Source of the DNA: an uncultured Spirochaetales bacterium
GTDB lineage: Bacteria; Spirochaetota; Spirochaetia; Sphaerochaetales; Sphaerochaetaceae
Reading direction: 5' to 3'
Length of the DNA stretch: 32,844 nucleotides
Assembly: GCA_949297785.1 (NCBI GenBank)
Contig: CASFTW010000019.1
Location: forward strand, 1 to 32,844
Shown here: piece by piece, positions 12,681 through 24,194 of the stretch
Layout: each line of letters starts with the position of its first letter
Numbering within the stretch: position 1 is the first letter of the stretch
Notes under the pieces: model-generated
Databases searched by the model: none
What the model was told of the DNA's origin: nothing
Seen by the model: the letters and a program-made list of their open reading frames with translations, nothing else
Translations under genes and position numbers: made by a program

Positions 12681-12850
12681 GCCTGCATATTATGATAGTG
12701 ACAGTACCCACTAAGCAAGCTTAGGGGCTTCCTGAGAGTATCTCAGGTCTTTTTCCTCGTTCACGGAAACCATGCTTCTTAGGCACATTGCTGTGCGGTC
12801 GTCCACAGAGGGTTTCTCCGGAGGCTTGACTTCGCCAGTGTCCCTGGCTA
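12681..12850 (-). ncRNA. Putative omega RNA (reRNA) region of TnpB
   Basis: In IS200/IS605 elements the guide scaffold is transcribed from the 3' end of tnpB and the right end. Here the last codons form a CTAAGC-TT-GCTTAG hairpin over the stop codon, preceded by several short stems in the coding end, and followed by GTGGGTACTGTCAC. The exact right end, and therefore the native guide, cannot be fixed from one copy. Boundaries given are approximate. Confidence 0.3.
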
Positions 12851-13952
12851 GGGCCTTCAGGCCAAAGGATCTCAGATTGAGAGCCGCATTGCGGTCTCTA
12901 TCATGCCGGGTATGACATACAGAGCACTCCCACTTTCTGTCACCAAGTGTGAGCCCATCGTTATGCCAGCCGCAGTTATTGCAAATGCGTGATGATGCAA
13001 AGAATCTGTCTGCAATTATCAGACTCTTTCCATACCACAGGCATTTGTATTCAAGCTGTCTTCTCACTTCATAAAAAGATGCATCCGTTATATGCTTGGC
13101 AAGCTTTCCGTTTTTCATCATTCCGGATACATTCAGATCCTCAATTACAATCACGTCTGTTTGGCTGTCACAGACTATCTGCTTTGTCATCTTATGTATC
13201 GCATCCTTCCTGATGTCTGTTATCTTTTCATGAAGAGCTGCTATCTCCTTCTTTATCTTCCTCCAGTTATTCGAACCTTTCTTCTTTTTGGAAAGAAGCC
13301 GCTGGAGATGTTTCAGCTTTTTCTCATATTGCTTCAGTGTTCTCGGGTTCTCATAATCATTTCCATCTGAGCAGACTGCCAGTCGCTCAAGGTTCAGGTC
13401 AACTCCAATCACCTTTGGATTATCAGGGACAACAGGAGAAGGAGCTTCATTTCCATTATCAAAAAGACAGGAAGCGTATACTGTTCCAGAAGGATTGACA
13501 GTGACAGTGATGTTCTTGAGTTTCCCGAAAGGCTTTCTGTGTATCACAGCATCAACCCAGCCGACACCTTGAACATAGATTCTGCTTCCTTCTACATCTA
13601 CTTTTCCTCTCTGAGGTATTCTGAAACTCTTCCTGGAACGGTGCTTTGATTTGTACTTCGGATAATCTGCATTCTTCCTGAAGAAAGCTTTGAATGCATT
13701 TGACAAATCTGCTGATACACACTGCAAAGACTGTGCAGGTGCATCAGAAAGCCATGGGTATGCTTTCTTGAGAGTATGGCATATGAAGTTATTCAAATCG
13801 AAGGATGTATGACTTTCACCTCTTCTCTTATAAGACTTTGAGCAATACTCCAGAAGGCGGTTATAAGTGAAGCGGCAACAGCCGATGATGCGGGTCATCA
13901 TCTGAGTTTGTTCTGCTGTTGGATAGAGCCTGTAACGGTACGCCTTCTGCAT
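12711..13952 (-). CDS. tnpB: TnpB RNA-guided endonuclease (IS200/IS605 family, solo)
   Basis: 413 residues, full length for TnpB. An N-terminal helix-turn-helix/WED-like part with 'YRYRLYPTAEQ' opens the protein. RuvC-I aspartate is Asp185 in IGVDLNLE; RuvC-II glutamate is Glu271 in VIVIEDLNV; the zinc ribbon uses Cys324, Cys327, Cys343 and Cys346; RuvC-III is DRDRNAALN (Asp351/Asp353). All catalytic residues are present, so nuclease activity is plausible. No TnpA transposase lies beside it (IS1341-like layout), so it cannot move itself without one in trans. No Shine-Dalgarno precedes the ATG; an extended -10 TGCTATAAT lies 6 nt upstream. The C terminus (SQEAPKLA) is typical of the family, where it overlaps the guide-RNA scaffold. 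Confidence 0.93.
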   Translation of the reverse strand: MQKAYRYRLYPTAEQTQMMTRIIGCCRFTYNRLLEYCSKSYKRRGESHTSFDLNNFICHTLKKAYPWLSDAPAQSLQCVSADLSNAFKAFFRKNADYPKYKSKHRSRKSFRIPQRGKVDVEGSRIYVQGVGWVDAVIHRKPFGKLKNITVTVNPSGTVYASCLFDNGNEAPSPVVPDNPKVIGVDLNLERLAVCSDGNDYENPRTLKQYEKKLKHLQRLLSKKKKGSNNWRKIKKEIAALHEKITDIRKDAIHKMTKQIVCDSQTDVIVIEDLNVSGMMKNGKLAKHITDASFYEVRRQLEYKCLWYGKSLIIADRFFASSRICNNCGWHNDGLTLGDRKWECSVCHTRHDRDRNAALNLRSFGLKALARDTGEVKPPEKPSVDDRTAMCLRSMVSVNEEKDLRYSQEAPKLA

Positions 13953-15602: not shown

Positions 15603-15645
15603 CCTGCTGTAAATATTCATCATAAAATTTTTTCGTTTCTGAACA

Positions 15646-15671
15646 AGGGCCCCTTATGCGGGCTCTTTCTG
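15646..15671 (+). terminator. Terminator after rpmB
   Basis: AGGGCCC (15646-15652) pairs with GGGCTCT (15660-15666, one G-U) and is followed by TTCTGT. The short T-tract suggests incomplete termination, which may allow read-through into the thr genes, since no strong promoter is visible before 15709. Confidence 0.6.
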
Positions 15672-15708
15672 TATTCAGAGGATATGTGAAAAATAAAAAG
15701 AGGTGCGG

Positions 15709-18099
15709 ATGGAAACTGTAAGAGTACATGCAATAGAAGGGGGGATGATCTCGTCGCTGGGCGGGATCGAAAAACTGAGGTCGGTTCTTTCCCTTTATGA
15801 CAATCCCTGTCAGGTTGTTGTCATATCGCCGGTGAGAAGCGGGGAGCTTTCTTTCTCACATCTGCTTGCAAACGCCGCGATGAAGGACGAGAAGCTGTGG
15901 TCCCTGCTTGAGAAGAGCCAGAACAGCTGGGAAGATTTCCTTTCGAAAACGTCAAGCTCCGCTTTCGTGGATGACGAGCTCCGCCGTCATTTTGAGGATA
16001 TGGAGGATCTCCTGCGTTCCGTATGGCTGCTTGAGGATGTGTCAAAGAACACGGAGAATTATTTCTCTTCCCTCACAAGCACCTTCCTTGCCGCTGTTGC
16101 CTGCGATTATCTTGCCAGAAACGGAATCAGCTGCACCGCAATAGAGGCAAGAACCGCGCTCAGGGCAAAAAGCTTTACAAACGGCGTCACCCTTGTGTAC
16201 GGCACGCTCGAGCAGAGTCCGACAAGTTCATATGTCGGAGAAGGGGAAAGCGAATACACTGCGGCCCTCATTGCCGCACAGTGCAATGCCGGCATCACGT
16301 ACTGGAATACCCGCTCGCTTTTCTGTTCTGCGAGTTCACGCGAAATTCCTTCTGCGAAAGTCATAAAGCGTCTCACCTATGCCGAGGCGACCGAGCTCAG
16401 CTTCTTCGGTGCCCCGATTGTCCACCCCCATGCCTTCATACCGGCACAGAGTGCGAATCTCGAGATAGAGCTGCGCTACTGGTATGAGCCTGAAAACGAA
16501 GGAACGCTGATCACGAACAGCATGAATGCTAAGGACAGACGCTATCCCGTAAAAGCCTTCTCGGTCATGAGAAACATCTCGATAATAAACATCGAAGGTG
16601 CCGGCATGTCAGGTGTGCCGGGTATTTCATCAAGGCTTTTCAATTCGCTGCGTGAGGCTGGAATTTCGGTAATCCTCATTTCCCAGGCGTCAAGTGAGTA
16701 CTCGATATGTTTTGCAGTTCCTTCAAGTCAGGTCACTGCGGCTGCCGCAAAGACGAGGCATGAATTCGCATCCGAGCTCAACTCGCATCAGATCGCATCT
16801 ATTTCCGCTGTCAGCGGCATGGCGATCATTGCGGCGGTGGGCGAGATGATGAGCGGCCAGATCGGTGTGTCGGGCAAGTTCTTCTCCGCACTTGCCCGTG
16901 CCGGTGTCAACGTGAGCGCAATCGCACAGGGGTCATCCGAGAGAAACATTTCCGCCGTGATAAGCGAGAAGGATTCCCACAAGGCACTCAGTGCGCTTCA
17001 TTCCTCATTCTTCCTTTCCGCGCAGACTCTTTCCGTCGGACTTTTCGGTCCGGGAAACATAGGCGGCACGCTTCTTGATCAGCTTGCCCAGGAACAGGAC
17101 AGGCTGAAAAAGCAGTTCGATCTCGATATAAGGATACGCGGTATCGCAAACTCCGGAAGAATGCTTCTGGCTGAAGACGGTGTTGATCTTTCATCCTGGA
17201 GAGAACAGTTCCGTCTCTGCTCCGTTCCCCTTGACAGGGATGAGTTCCTCCGTCATGTAGGTGCCTCCTACTATCCTCATGCGGTTCTCATCGACTGCAC
17301 CACAAGTCAGGAACTTGCCATGCAGTATGCGTCATGGCTTGAGAATTTCCACATCATAACGCCGAACAAGAAAGCCTGCACCGCAAGCTATGAATACTAC
17401 AGACAAATGATGGAAGTGAGCCGCAAATCCGGCAAGAGATTCCTGTATGAAACCACAGTCGGTGCAGGGCTTCCCATCATCAATACTCTCAATGACCTCA
17501 TCCAGACAGGTGATGAAGTGAGAAAGATCGAAGGTATTGTCTCCGGAACCCTTGCATGGCTTTTCTGCAATTACGACGGCAGCACGCCTTTCAGCCAGCT
17601 TGTGCTGAAAGCCCGTGAAATGGGCTTCACCGAGCCTGATCCACGTGATGACCTTTCCGGCATGGATGTTGCCAGAAAGACTGTCATCCTTGCACGTGAG
17701 ATCGGCTCCCATGCCGAGCTTGGCGAACTTGAGGTCGAGTCCCTTGTTCCTTCTCCGCTCAAAGATGTCAGCAGGGATGAGTTCCTCGCACGGTTGGCTG
17801 AACTCGACGATGACATAAAGAAGCGGTATGAGAAGGCGAAGAGTGAAGGCAAGTGCCTGCGTTATATAGGCTGTGTGAATAACGGGAAGTGTTCCGTGTC
17901 CCTCACGGCGCTTCCTCTTTCCCATCCCTTCGCCCAGGCCGGCGGTACCGACAACATAATCGCATTCACAACAGCACGCTACAGCGAGGAGCAGCCGCTG
18001 GTGATCAAGGGGCCTGGAGCAGGCCCTGCGGTTACGGCAGGAGGTGTGTTCAGTGATCTCATCCGTCTGTCAGTGTATCTCGGGGCAGGACTTATCTGA
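15709..18099 (+). CDS. thrA: ThrA-like homoserine dehydrogenase with a degenerate aspartokinase domain
   Basis: 796 residues from the ATG at 15709 (GAGGTG 5 nt upstream); the architecture is that of E. coli ThrA: aspartokinase-like 1-290, two ACT-type regulatory segments about 295-440, homoserine dehydrogenase 445-796. The dehydrogenase half is intact: NAD motif FGPGNIGG, TPNKKA, TTVGAGLP, and catalytic DPRDDLSGMDVARK. The kinase half is not: the KFGGTS loop reads AIEGGMISS (Lys and Thr lost), the RGEK-MS segment reads LTSTF, GRNGSDY reads GEGESEY (177-183), and TDVDGV reads NTRSLF. Only the non-catalytic ELSFFGAPIVHP remains. So it likely makes homoserine but not aspartyl phosphate, with the first half kept as a regulatory scaffold; a separate aspartokinase would be needed. 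thrC follows after 17 nt. Confidence 0.9.
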   Translation: METVRVHAIEGGMISSLGGIEKLRSVLSLYDNPCQVVVISPVRSGELSFSHLLANAAMKDEKLWSLLEKSQNSWEDFLSKTSSSAFVDDELRRHFEDMEDLLRSVWLLEDVSKNTENYFSSLTSTFLAAVACDYLARNGISCTAIEARTALRAKSFTNGVTLVYGTLEQSPTSSYVGEGESEYTAALIAAQCNAGITYWNTRSLFCSASSREIPSAKVIKRLTYAEATELSFFGAPIVHPHAFIPAQSANLEIELRYWYEPENEGTLITNSMNAKDRRYPVKAFSVMRNISIINIEGAGMSGVPGISSRLFNSLREAGISVILISQASSEYSICFAVPSSQVTAAAAKTRHEFASELNSHQIASISAVSGMAIIAAVGEMMSGQIGVSGKFFSALARAGVNVSAIAQGSSERNISAVISEKDSHKALSALHSSFFLSAQTLSVGLFGPGNIGGTLLDQLAQEQDRLKKQFDLDIRIRGIANSGRMLLAEDGVDLSSWREQFRLCSVPLDRDEFLRHVGASYYPHAVLIDCTTSQELAMQYASWLENFHIITPNKKACTASYEYYRQMMEVSRKSGKRFLYETTVGAGLPIINTLNDLIQTGDEVRKIEGIVSGTLAWLFCNYDGSTPFSQLVLKAREMGFTEPDPRDDLSGMDVARKTVILAREIGSHAELGELEVESLVPSPLKDVSRDEFLARLAELDDDIKKRYEKAKSEGKCLRYIGCVNNGKCSVSLTALPLSHPFAQAGGTDNIIAFTTARYSEEQPLVIKGPGAGPAVTAGGVFSDLIRLSVYLGAGLI

Positions 18100-18116
18100 A
18101 AGGAGGTTTGACTCAT

Positions 18117-19382
18117 ATGTACTATTATTCAACACGTGATAAAAACAGAAATAATAAACTTACGGCAAGCGATGCGATACTGAAGGGACTTGCCCGGGAC
18201 GGCGGTCTTTTCGTGCCGGATCATCTGCCGTCTCTTGACTCCTCTCTTTCTGTTGACATGCCATACGGCAGATTTGCTGCCACTGTTCTCAGACCATTCT
18301 TCGAAGGTGATGAGCTTGAAGGCGATCTTGAGGAAATATGCAGTGCCGCTTTCGATTTCCCCATTCCATTGAATAAGCTTTCAAATTCAACTGTGCTTGA
18401 GCTTTTCCACGGTCCGACCTCCGCATTCAAGGATTTCGGGGCACGCTTTCTTGCATTCTCGATGGAAAAGCTTCTTGTCCGTCATGACAGGAAGCTCTGC
18501 ATCCTTGTCGCAACCAGCGGAGACACAGGCGGCGCCGTGGCCGCTGCCTTCCATAACAGAAAGAATCTTTCAGTGAAGGTGCTCTTCCCGAAGGGAAGGG
18601 TTGCAAAGCGGCAGAAGCGGCAGCTCACCTGCTGGGACGGGAACATCTCATCATACGAGGTGGAAGGGAGTTTCGATGACTGCCAGAAGATGGTGAAGGA
18701 TGCTTTTGTCGATCCTCACTACAGTGCCTCTCTTTCATCTGCGAACTCCATCAACCTCGGTCGGCTCCTGCCTCAGATGGTCTATTATGTATATGCATCG
18801 ATGGTTTATGAAAAGGAAAACGGAAAGAAGCCAGTCATCGTCATTCCTTCCGGCAATGTCGGCAACTCCACAGGTGCCTACTGGGCAATGAGCATGGGAG
18901 CTCCGATAGAGAGGATAGTTCTTGCCGTGAATGCCAACAGGACAATCCCCGATTACCTTGAAAGCGGGGAATACCGTCCCCGTCCGTCAGTGAAGACGCT
19001 TGCAAATGCAATGGATGTGGGTGCTCCTTCGAACATGGAGAGGCTGTTCAGCCTTTACCCGACATACGAAGAGGTGAAGGAACATCTCTCAGCCGCGTCG
19101 GTGAGCGACGACGAGATAAGAGAGACAATACGGAAAGTATACACACAAGACGGTTATATAATGTGTCCGCATACAGCCTGCGGCGAAAGGGTGAGGGAGC
19201 GTCTGCTGGATGGAAAGGACAATGTCCTTCTTGTCTCAACCGCGCATCCTGCGAAGTTCGAGACCATAGTCGAACCTCTCATCGGCACTGAAGTTCCGCT
19301 TCCGCCTGCCTTGAAGAGCCTTCTCGACAGGCCGGTCAGCTATAAGGAGATTCCGGCCGATTACCACAGACTGTTCGACTGA
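18117..19382 (+). CDS. thrC: Threonine synthase
   Basis: 421 residues from the ATG at 18117; AAAGGAGG lies 10 nt upstream, and the in-frame TTG at 18108 sits too close to it. A PLP enzyme that converts O-phosphohomoserine to threonine. The PLP lysine is Lys105 in TSAFKDFGAR; the phosphate-binding SGNVGNSTGA loop and ATSGDTGGA are both present. The N terminus (YYSTRD...LTASDAILKGLARDGGLFVP) is that of class I threonine synthases. It is the distal gene of the thrA-thrC pair; no homoserine kinase (thrB) is in the window. Its stop abuts the convergent MATE gene without any gap. Confidence 0.96.
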   Translation: MYYYSTRDKNRNNKLTASDAILKGLARDGGLFVPDHLPSLDSSLSVDMPYGRFAATVLRPFFEGDELEGDLEEICSAAFDFPIPLNKLSNSTVLELFHGPTSAFKDFGARFLAFSMEKLLVRHDRKLCILVATSGDTGGAVAAAFHNRKNLSVKVLFPKGRVAKRQKRQLTCWDGNISSYEVEGSFDDCQKMVKDAFVDPHYSASLSSANSINLGRLLPQMVYYVYASMVYEKENGKKPVIVIPSGNVGNSTGAYWAMSMGAPIERIVLAVNANRTIPDYLESGEYRPRPSVKTLANAMDVGAPSNMERLFSLYPTYEEVKEHLSAASVSDDEIRETIRKVYTQDGYIMCPHTACGERVRERLLDGKDNVLLVSTAHPAKFETIVEPLIGTEVPLPPALKSLLDRPVSYKEIPADYHRLFD

Positions 19383-21028: not shown

Positions 21029-21069
21029 TCTTGCCTTAAACCCTCTTGCAGAGTATTGTTTAGGTGTTT

Positions 21070-21097
21070 TCGAACAAAAACAATCAAAAATGTTCGA
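21070..21097. promoter_or_regulatory. Inverted repeat upstream of the lipoprotein operon
   Basis: TCGAACA (21070-21076) and TGTTCGA (21091-21097) are perfect inverted repeats around a 14-nt A-rich spacer, followed by TAAAAT. It could be an operator over the promoter of 21124-24194. No regulator is assigned. Confidence 0.35.
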
Positions 21098-21123
21098 TAA
21101 AATCTGAATCCGGGGAGATTCCA

Positions 21124-22935
21124 ATGAAAAAAGCAATTCTAATACTGCTGACAGTTCTTCTGGCAGTATCGTGTTCACAGGTGGTTTATGATAATCTGCC
21201 GCCTGAGGATATTGAAGGACGCAAAACTACTTTAACTGTAGAACAGGTTGGAGATACAAGAAATCTGTTGTTAAAATTCAATCCTGTGCCATATGTGGAT
21301 GAATATGCATATTCTGTTAATGGTGAAACGGAAAAGGTCTTTGAGGCTGATGGTGTAGAAGGTGGAATGCTTACATACCGTATTCCAGATTCAGATATTC
21401 CTGTAAATAAAGGTTCAGTATCACTCTTTGGAAGAACAGATGAATCTAATTGGTCAAATCTTGCAACTGCAGATTTTGAAATAATCTTGGATGGAATAGC
21501 TCCGGATGTTTATCTGTATGCAAGATATAGTGATAAAGTGGAAATCAAAACGGAATCTACCGATTCATCTATTCTTTATATGGTTGTCATAAGAAATGAA
21601 GATAATCCTGATGATGAAAAAACAGCTTTGTTAAAAGCTGAAAATGGAATTATCACAATAAATGCTCTTAATCCTGAGAATAAGTATTCATTTAATGTAT
21701 ATCAGATGGTGGACGCCTCTGCAGATGTTCCAGAAGCTTATACAACAGTAAATGCTGATATTTTTGTCCAAGAAGTTAAAATGAAACTTTCAAAGACAGA
21801 AAAAGGGTTTGAGATAGCTTCAATTCCTTCTTCAGTCTCATCGATTAAACTAGTTAAAGATAATAGTTCTATTTCCGTTTCTCAGATCGTAAATGGAGAT
21901 ACTGCTGTAATAAGCTTTGAAGAATTTCCAAGTCTCGAGTATGGGATATTCCATGTAATTACTGATGACGAAACATGTGTAAGTAACAACCTAAGAACAG
22001 CTACACCTCTTACCCCGATTGAAAATGGACGTATAGTTAATTACAAGAGCGTAGATTATACGGTCAGACTTTCTTCAGAGGTAAAATTGGAAGAAGTTAC
22101 ACTTACATTACCAGGTACAATGGGATTGCAGATAACCAAAAAAGCAGGTAATGATGATAATACTGCTGTAATAACTATTTCCAATCTTGACAGTAATACA
22201 GAGTATAATGATTTATTGATTGGGGCTGCTGTTGGTGAAGATTTTGCTGTAACTACTCAGCTAGATTCATTTAAAACTCAAAGTTTTGCAGGTAAATTCT
22301 TTGAATGGAGAGGTACGTTTAATTCTGATTCAAAAAAACAACAGAATTTCATTATTTATGTTGATGATTCTCCGGAAGGTAGTGATTATCCATATTATGT
22401 ATACTTTGCAAAAAATGATAAAGCTATTGGTCAAAGTCAGAATTATGAAAAAAGCGACTATAGACTTATGCCTCTTATAGATAATTCTATTGATTTGGGA
22501 GAAAAAGCAGATCCAATAATAACTGGTTATATTAGCTGGAAAACTAATTTAGACTCAGCTGGTGTAGAATTTTATTCTCAGAATTTAGCTTATCAGTATA
22601 ATTCAAAAAAATGGAATACTTCCCCTATTTCTATAAACCCATCAGAGTGGAATATTGATAGACGTACAATTGATGGTGATAAAATTACAGTCATAACTAA
22701 TTCAACTACTCCTCTTGGAAGTGTTGTGACGAATACAGTATTTGAGTTCTGTGAGTCTGATTCAGGGAAACCATATGTTTCTTTCTATAATGCTGCACCT
22801 ACTGCTCCTGGTCTTGTTCAAAGGTTTATAGCACAAAGGGGAACTACTGAATTCCCTATATTTGAAGAAGATCCAAGTGATTTAAGTACATTCTGGCTTG
22901 GTTTAGTTGAAGATACAAAAGGAGATGCAGAATGA
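21124..22935 (+). CDS. Hypothetical lipoprotein with beta-sandwich-like repeats
   Basis: 603 residues from the ATG at 21124, with GGGGAG 6-7 nt upstream; the frame opens earlier but without a signal. The signal peptide has a lipobox (LLAVSC-S), so it is lipid-anchored after residue 17. The body shows FN3-like phrases ('NPENKYSFNVYQ', 'LDSNTEYNDLLIGA') and many short beta strands; I do not recognise a family. Codon usage is much more AT-rich than the flanking genes, which suggests recent acquisition or a fast-evolving surface protein. It overlaps the next gene by 4 nt (ATGA), so the two products are probably partners at the cell surface. Confidence 0.75.
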   Translation: MKKAILILLTVLLAVSCSQVVYDNLPPEDIEGRKTTLTVEQVGDTRNLLLKFNPVPYVDEYAYSVNGETEKVFEADGVEGGMLTYRIPDSDIPVNKGSVSLFGRTDESNWSNLATADFEIILDGIAPDVYLYARYSDKVEIKTESTDSSILYMVVIRNEDNPDDEKTALLKAENGIITINALNPENKYSFNVYQMVDASADVPEAYTTVNADIFVQEVKMKLSKTEKGFEIASIPSSVSSIKLVKDNSSISVSQIVNGDTAVISFEEFPSLEYGIFHVITDDETCVSNNLRTATPLTPIENGRIVNYKSVDYTVRLSSEVKLEEVTLTLPGTMGLQITKKAGNDDNTAVITISNLDSNTEYNDLLIGAAVGEDFAVTTQLDSFKTQSFAGKFFEWRGTFNSDSKKQQNFIIYVDDSPEGSDYPYYVYFAKNDKAIGQSQNYEKSDYRLMPLIDNSIDLGEKADPIITGYISWKTNLDSAGVEFYSQNLAYQYNSKKWNTSPISINPSEWNIDRRTIDGDKITVITNSTTPLGSVVTNTVFEFCESDSGKPYVSFYNAAPTAPGLVQRFIAQRGTTEFPIFEEDPSDLSTFWLGLVEDTKGDAE

Positions 22936-24194
22936 AAAAGTTTATAACAATAATATTTATATTGCTTTTCTCTGGCAGTGTAGTTTTTGCAATGACACCA
23001 TATTATGACCCATTTTATACTACTGATGATATCTTCACATCTCCTGCGAGATTTACAGAACAGCCTGAAATCTCTCCATTTGGTTTTGAGTTCAATACAT
23101 TTGGTGCGGTAGATTATCTTTCCTATCTTTCCAATCCAGTAAATAAGCTCAGTGAAGATGAATACGTAGATGCTCTTTATGACATCCTTTACAACGCTGA
23201 TCTGGATTTCTGGTCTAAGAACACGTCTTTGATCAGCTCGATTTTTGATTTTGATGGTCATACTTGGACAGCCCCTACAAATGAAGCACAGCTTGCCCAG
23301 TTGAGGGCTGATCTTGAGGATTCATTCAATAACCGTTTCAATTCAACACATAAGGCAGTTGCTGTATACAATGCAATTCAAAAAAATTTACTGGATGATG
23401 AGAAACTGTATGGCGATGTAAATCTCAGCCTCACTCTTCACGGTGGTGCATCATATTCAAACGGTTTTGCATGGAGACTTAAGGCTGATGCTGGATTCAT
23501 GACTCCTGAGAATATGTTTTCCAATCAGAAGAGTGTAATTGCTTTTGATGTCAGGGCAGATTTCGCTTATGCATTCAATATCTTGTCTGAGAAATTCAGT
23601 GTAGGTGTTGCACTTGATGTACTTGCAGGAGGACAAGCTTTGATCTCAAACAATGGTCTTCTTGCTGCAAGGTTTAAAGACAATATCCTTCTTGCTTTCA
23701 CTGATGATCCGAATTTCACGCTAGACATGGGGCTTGGATTCGGTCTTAATTTCGGAGGTATGTACCGTCAGAATGAGACTTTAGCATTCACACTTGATCT
23801 TACTAATGTGGCAAGCTTCAGAAAGTATTATTACCTAGATGTTAATGATCTGAGTGGAAGCTACGACGGTTTTGATGAGATGGATGTCTATTACCAGCCG
23901 ATGGATCTTGTGTTGAAGGCACTTTGGGATTACGGTCCGTATCATCTTGTGGTTGAGTTCAGCGATGTCATCAATCAGGTGATCTGGGACAGGGAAGTGA
24001 GCGGTTATGATTATAACTTCTTTGCAATTCCGAAGCTCGGTTTCACTTATGATATCAACGAGGATTTCAGCATTAATACTCATCTTGGATATTCAAAGCT
24101 GAGCTTCGGCATTGATTTCCATAATTTCACTGTGGAAGCATCGACAAGTCTCAACAAGCTCGGTTTCGGTCTTTCCGTCGGATATTCAATCTGA
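22932..24194 (+). CDS. Putative outer-membrane beta-barrel protein
   Basis: 420 residues. Signal peptide MKKFITIIFILLFSGSVVFA, cleaved before MTPYYDP. The second half is built of alternating amphipathic strands (for example 'GDVNLSLTLHGGASYSNGFAW', seen as VNLSLTLHGG, and 'FGLNFGGMYRQNETLAFTLDL') and ends in GFGLSVGYSI, a plausible barrel C-terminal strand. It resembles spirochaete outer-membrane proteins but no exact family is recognised. It is coupled to the upstream lipoprotein by a 4-nt overlap. Base composition changes inside the gene: the first 150-200 bases are AT-rich like the lipoprotein, the rest matches the chromosome. Confidence 0.75.
   Translation: MKKFITIIFILLFSGSVVFAMTPYYDPFYTTDDIFTSPARFTEQPEISPFGFEFNTFGAVDYLSYLSNPVNKLSEDEYVDALYDILYNADLDFWSKNTSLISSIFDFDGHTWTAPTNEAQLAQLRADLEDSFNNRFNSTHKAVAVYNAIQKNLLDDEKLYGDVNLSLTLHGGASYSNGFAWRLKADAGFMTPENMFSNQKSVIAFDVRADFAYAFNILSEKFSVGVALDVLAGGQALISNNGLLAARFKDNILLAFTDDPNFTLDMGLGFGLNFGGMYRQNETLAFTLDLTNVASFRKYYYLDVNDLSGSYDGFDEMDVYYQPMDLVLKALWDYGPYHLVVEFSDVINQVIWDREVSGYDYNFFAIPKLGFTYDINEDFSINTHLGYSKLSFGIDFHNFTVEASTSLNKLGFGLSVGYSI

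Follow-up and report, generated by a model that had tools for sequence, protein, structure and literature searches.

A clade-wide pseudo-aspartokinase domain predicted in ThrA-like fusion proteins of Spirochaetia

In E. coli ThrA (AKI-HDI), an aspartokinase (AK) domain, two ACT domains with threonine-site motifs and a homoserine dehydrogenase (HSD) are joined in a single chain, encoded in a cluster with thrC. The authors of work on Salmonella ThrA, in which the substitution G403D renders the HSD insensitive to threonine, place the main threonine control at the HSD step (PMC3416771). The second E. coli fusion, MetL (AKII-HDII), shares this architecture but contains a degenerated module: its kinase is kept whereas its ACT threonine motifs are lost, and feedback inhibition has not been reported for it (PMC1885841). 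The threonine-sensitive aspartokinase of M. jannaschii (3c1m, 3c1n), solved with an MgATP analogue and aspartate, has no HSD domain. N-acetylglutamate synthase (NAGS, ArgA), of another family, retains an amino-acid-kinase domain through which the end product exerts feedback on the catalytic domain fused to it, and a study has reportedly dealt with bringing back the ancestral kinase activity of ArgA from P. aeruginosa. In NAGS, the arginine site for feedback control lies on the amino-acid-kinase domain itself (PMC5146650).

The window analysed here is a stretch of 32,844 nucleotides (contig CASFTW010000019.1) from the 2.2-Mb genome of an uncultured Spirochaetales bacterium, referred to as G000. 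It encodes a ThrA-like protein, whose residues are numbered below from the GTG at 15703, with the following features:

15703-18099, + strand: thrA-like gene; open reading frame of 798 codons from GTG, likely start ATG 15709 (796 aa)
15709-16527, + strand: predicted pseudo-aspartokinase domain, residues 3-275; AlphaFold2 fold, catalytic residues lost
15730-15747, + strand: AIEGGM (residues 10-15) in place of the KFGGTS phosphate loop, by MAFFT and HHalign
16075-16083, + strand: T125-S126-T127 in place of G-E-L/K (LysC Glu119), by MAFFT and HHalign
16237-16257, + strand: G179-E-G-E-S-E184-Y185 (GEGESE) in place of G-R-(N/G)-G-S-D, by alignment
16303-16320, + strand: W201-N-T-R-S-L206 in place of W-T-D-V-D-G (NTRSL for TDVDG), by alignment
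16543-17013, + strand: tandem ACT domains, residues 281-437; threonine-site motifs QASSEYS and IAQGSSE kept
17023-18096, + strand: HSD, residues 441-798; E644, D655 and K659 present
18108-19382, + strand: threonine synthase gene thrC (Pfam Thr_synth_N + PALP), 8 bp downstream of the thrA-like gene

Because the GTG at 15703 falls inside the Shine-Dalgarno stretch aaaGAGGTGcggATG, where GAGGTG precedes ATG 15709, the latter, already given as the start in the original prediction, is most likely the true one. Pfam and NCBIfam find the order AK-ACT-ACT-HSD in a single chain, with Pfam scores of 48.5 bits for AA_kinase, 136 for ACT_9, 65 for NAD_binding_3 and 168 for Homoserine_dh. The NCBIfam equivalog PRK09436 (bifunctional aspartate kinase/homoserine dehydrogenase I) is matched at 801.9 bits against a cut-off of 726, so that an annotation pipeline would name the protein a kinase. 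The thrA-thrC pair recurs in most relatives with flanking sequence to compare. A hairpin with a T-run at about 15645-15672 (MARRCDICGKGTVAGQ...), 35-60 nt upstream of the thrA-like gene and similarly placed in most relatives within the genus, was considered as a thr attenuator and rejected: it follows an open reading frame for an L28-like ribosomal protein and reads as the terminator of that frame. Neither a Thr/Ile-rich leader peptide nor an Rfam riboswitch was found upstream of the gene.

In the amino-acid-kinase fold, the phosphate-loop glycines, a lysine and acidic residues are required. The window protein was aligned with E. coli LysC, ThrA and MetL by MAFFT and, independently, by profile-profile comparison with HHalign (E = 4.6e-30, 247 columns), and the motif pairing was identical. 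The catalytic residues of a ThrA-type AK that were looked for (Lys8, Glu119, Arg198, Asp202 and the TD pair, in LysC numbering) are absent, their places being taken by Ala10, Ser126, Glu180, Glu184 and Asn202-Thr203 (for Thr221-Asp222); in the phosphate loop, Gly10 has become Glu12 and Thr12 has become Gly14. In LysC, Glu119 holds the amino group of aspartate, Arg198 holds its carboxylate, and Ala40, Thr45, Phe184 and Ser201 touch it (PMC5481828); the last four correspond to Pro43, Glu48, Thr168 and Ser183 in the window protein. Compared with ThrA, about 23 residues are also missing before the VYG strand (166-167), a deletion found in the window's family (f1), while the ELSFFGA segment (231-237) is intact. 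The original prediction, which had described the KFGGTS, RGEK, GRNGSD and TDVDG residues as replaced and the ELSFFGA scaffold, ACT segments and HSD motifs as preserved, is thus borne out by both alignments and, for the losses, by the relatives.

Comparison of a predicted structure with known aspartokinases, which the original prediction had proposed as a check, points to a retained fold. AlphaFold2, run on residues 1-275 with seven input sequences, returned a complete AK fold (pLDDT 83.1, pTM 0.84), in which the main low-confidence stretch is the loop 208-218 just past the former TDVDG motif; a full-length prediction, with seven sequences as well, reached a pTM of 0.32, and residues 1-275 alone modelled well. 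The nearest solved structure to the 1-275 model is the M. jannaschii enzyme 3c1m (Z 24.5; 3.1 Å over 266 residues, 25% identity), followed by 2j0x (Z 23.5) and 2j0w (Z 21.6). The next fold relatives score lower, with UMP kinase at Z 16.8 against at least 21.6 for the aspartokinases. The model thus shows a complete AK domain that lacks its catalytic residues.

A search among relatives, in a survey centred on Spirochaetota, showed the catalytic losses to be common to 53-54 of them, in separate assemblies and across six Spirochaetia families; identical losses in dozens of genomes, including the single-contig genomes G017 and G036 (f1) and G060 (f25), led us to reject a sequencing or assembly artefact of a metagenome-assembled genome. 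The dead fusions, as we call them, comprise all aligned full-length members of f1 and the aligned members of f3, f4, f17, f22 and f25, whereas fusions aligned from f5, f24, f42 and f44 proved intact. The replacement of Asp202 by Glu occurs in 54 of 54 dead fusions against none of 22 intact ones, and is the sole change common to every dead sequence, truncated ones included. Glu119 is lost in all dead fusions, and Lys8 in all except six from f22, a family that has lost GG, Glu119 and Asp202; the decay of the other kinase motifs varies in degree across the clade. A tree built on the ACT and HSD columns, with kinase columns excluded, places the dead fusions on one side of a branch, and one state change suffices, the support being 88/80, which is below the starred level. 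This tree leaves out MetL and the truncated fusions L094 and L095, whose long branches had distorted an earlier version. The simplest reading of the sequences is a single ancestral loss followed by further decay, not fully secured given that level of support and the long branches of the intact fusions. In G004, a genome of the window's genus, two ThrA-like copies occur (C17:4876-7275 and C28:29800-32202), each about 65% identical to the window protein; the aligned copy is dead.

The dead domain is constrained, yet less so than an active kinase domain. Omega is 0.03-0.17 for the AK part, 0.006-0.074 for the ACT domains, which are the most constrained part of the dead fusions, and 0.02-0.08 for the HSD, several pairs having saturated synonymous sites; close pairs give 0.046 (L007-L008), 0.053 (L098-L102) and 0.078 (L034-L090) for the pseudo-kinase. 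These values, well below 1, and the open frames led us to reject a recent pseudogene. For pairs at an HSD distance of 0.25-0.35, the AK N-lobes lie 0.65 apart in dead fusions against 0.47 in intact ones and the AK C-parts 0.43 against 0.23, with ACT distances unchanged. Judged from its sequence, the AK domain of the window protein combines the marks of a pseudoenzyme, namely a kept fold, catalytic residues lost across a clade and purifying selection; the pseudo-kinase of the original prediction is supported on these grounds.

The sensor and dehydrogenase parts have been preserved. The ThrA threonine-site residues Q351, S353-E355, S357, I430-G433 and S435-E436 (E. coli numbering) do not vary among all 54 dead proteins, while the alignment shows the same residues mostly lost in MetL. 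The HSD motifs TPNKK (553), TEPDPRDDLSGMDVARK (643-659) and GPGAG (770) are intact, and the invariant E644, D655 and K659 align with E208, D219 and K223 of yeast HSD, the catalytic residues of that enzyme. The suggestion that the kinase half is kept for assembly or threonine sensing gains indirect support from the invariant ACT residues and the strong constraint on these domains.

As the original prediction had anticipated, G000 encodes a separate LysC (G000:C14:17175-18464) with KFGGSS, RGE, SRGGSD and WTDVSG all intact, on a different contig from the thrA-like gene and not next to it. A separate AK is present in 51 of the 54 genomes carrying a dead fusion; none was found in G005 and G075 (each 85% complete) or in G155 (95%), nor was a second AK found in G152 and G040, which have intact fusions. 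Two proteins of G000 have a Semialdhyde_dhC domain, and since one lies next to argB in an arginine cluster, the other is a candidate aspartate-semialdehyde dehydrogenase. HSD and threonine synthase are present, while no ThrB scores above the TIGR00191 cut-off in G000 (best 21.5 bits); this genome may use another type of homoserine kinase. In G009, a genome of the same genus (98% complete), LysC is present and neither an HSD domain nor a fusion was found, apparently through loss of the threonine branch or an assembly gap.

We interpret the window protein as most likely a threonine-regulated HSD in which a pseudo-aspartokinase serves as scaffold and allosteric relay, aspartate being phosphorylated by LysC. 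We envision an ancestor in which LysC took over the first step, after which the fused kinase would have lost its chemistry and stayed. LysC would now phosphorylate aspartate, while threonine would bind the ACT pair and inhibit the HSD through a ThrA-type assembly. The pseudo-kinase would be retained as the part that keeps the ACT sensors and the HSD subunits in place within a ThrA-like quaternary structure and transmits threonine binding to the dehydrogenase, a role that may be likened to that of the amino-acid-kinase domain in NAGS. The original prediction had also raised the possibility of different feedback control, which holds in part: the sensor looks like that of ThrA, but threonine is predicted to control the dehydrogenase alone, the kinase step being governed by LysC's own regulation.

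The kinase half could instead be a passenger, dead and with nothing specific left, which is eroding and retained by its in-frame fusion before the ACT domains. The faster evolution of its N-lobe, the deletion of about 23 residues in f1 and two truncated members of the window's family speak in this direction: L094 (G027, a 720-aa frame) has lost the pseudo-kinase in part and L095 (G028, 653 aa) for the most part, which, with the N-lobe drift, indicates that the domain is dispensable in some lineages. Against this stand a domain of full or almost full length in nearly every relative, its low omega (0.03-0.17) and the well-folded model; moreover, the dead clade has fixed, or all but fixed, E63, W66, E70, W108, E184 and P216, which for the most part are not fixed in intact fusions, so that part of the constraint is new. 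L094 also lacks the second ACT threonine motif (TTASPLDKS where IAQGSSERN is expected), and its truncation may coincide with a loss of sensing; this suggests that retention of the AK domain goes with sensing, two cases being too few for proof. We regard the passenger explanation as rather unlikely.

The residues fixed anew invite another explanation, which we consider unlikely too: that the pseudo-aspartokinase gained a regulatory role in its own right, such as binding a different metabolite near Glu184 in the emptied site, or docking LysC and so linking lysine and threonine control through a catalytically dead paralogue. Less probable still is a new job for the AK-fold pocket, either binding another effector or joining with LysC, or a different partner, to couple lysine and threonine control. 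An invariant Glu184 at the position of the old catalytic Asp and the W66/E70/R105/W108 group in a helical insert would suit such a role, but the fixed residues may only repack an emptied core, and LysC lies on another contig. It is very improbable that the domain still works as a kinase, whether by means of catalytic groups at other positions or on a different substrate. The fold is whole, basic residues occupy positions 105 (Lys/Arg in 98% of the dead clade) and 258 (92%), and f22 retains Lys8; yet the glycines, lysine and acidic residues that the fold requires are lost or altered, as are the aspartate anchors Glu119 and Arg198 (PMC5481828). No conserved Lys column of the dead clade replaces Lys8: only columns 24, 105 and 258 are rich in Lys or Arg, and across the dead domain no single Lys or Arg is conserved at 90% or more.

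As a probable threonine-regulated HSD with a pseudo-aspartokinase, the window protein differs from ThrA in its destroyed AK site, an AK part about 20 residues shorter and the need for a separate aspartokinase, and it is the mirror image of MetL, its ACT motifs being kept and its kinase lost. It differs from NAGS in that its likely sensor is the ACT pair and not the kinase-fold domain. A literature search covering few subscription papers found no published description of a dead-kinase ThrA variant, and a clade-wide pseudo-aspartokinase in a ThrA homologue is apparently undescribed. Database labels that name the dead fusions aspartate kinase (in NCBIfam, bifunctional AK/HSD) are probably wrong, and such systematic misannotation matters for metabolic models, where the kinase step would rest on LysC alone. 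This group of spirochaetes appears to control HSD by threonine through an aspartokinase devoid of chemistry, a natural separation of function in which the contribution of the AK half to ThrA regulation and assembly becomes testable free of kinase activity.

Elsewhere in the window, two adjoining open reading frames of 623 and 420 aa (21064-24194, + strand) are without a Pfam match at 1e-5, and 12711-13952 (- strand) encodes an IS605 OrfB/TnpB-type protein with a Cas12f1-like TNB domain.
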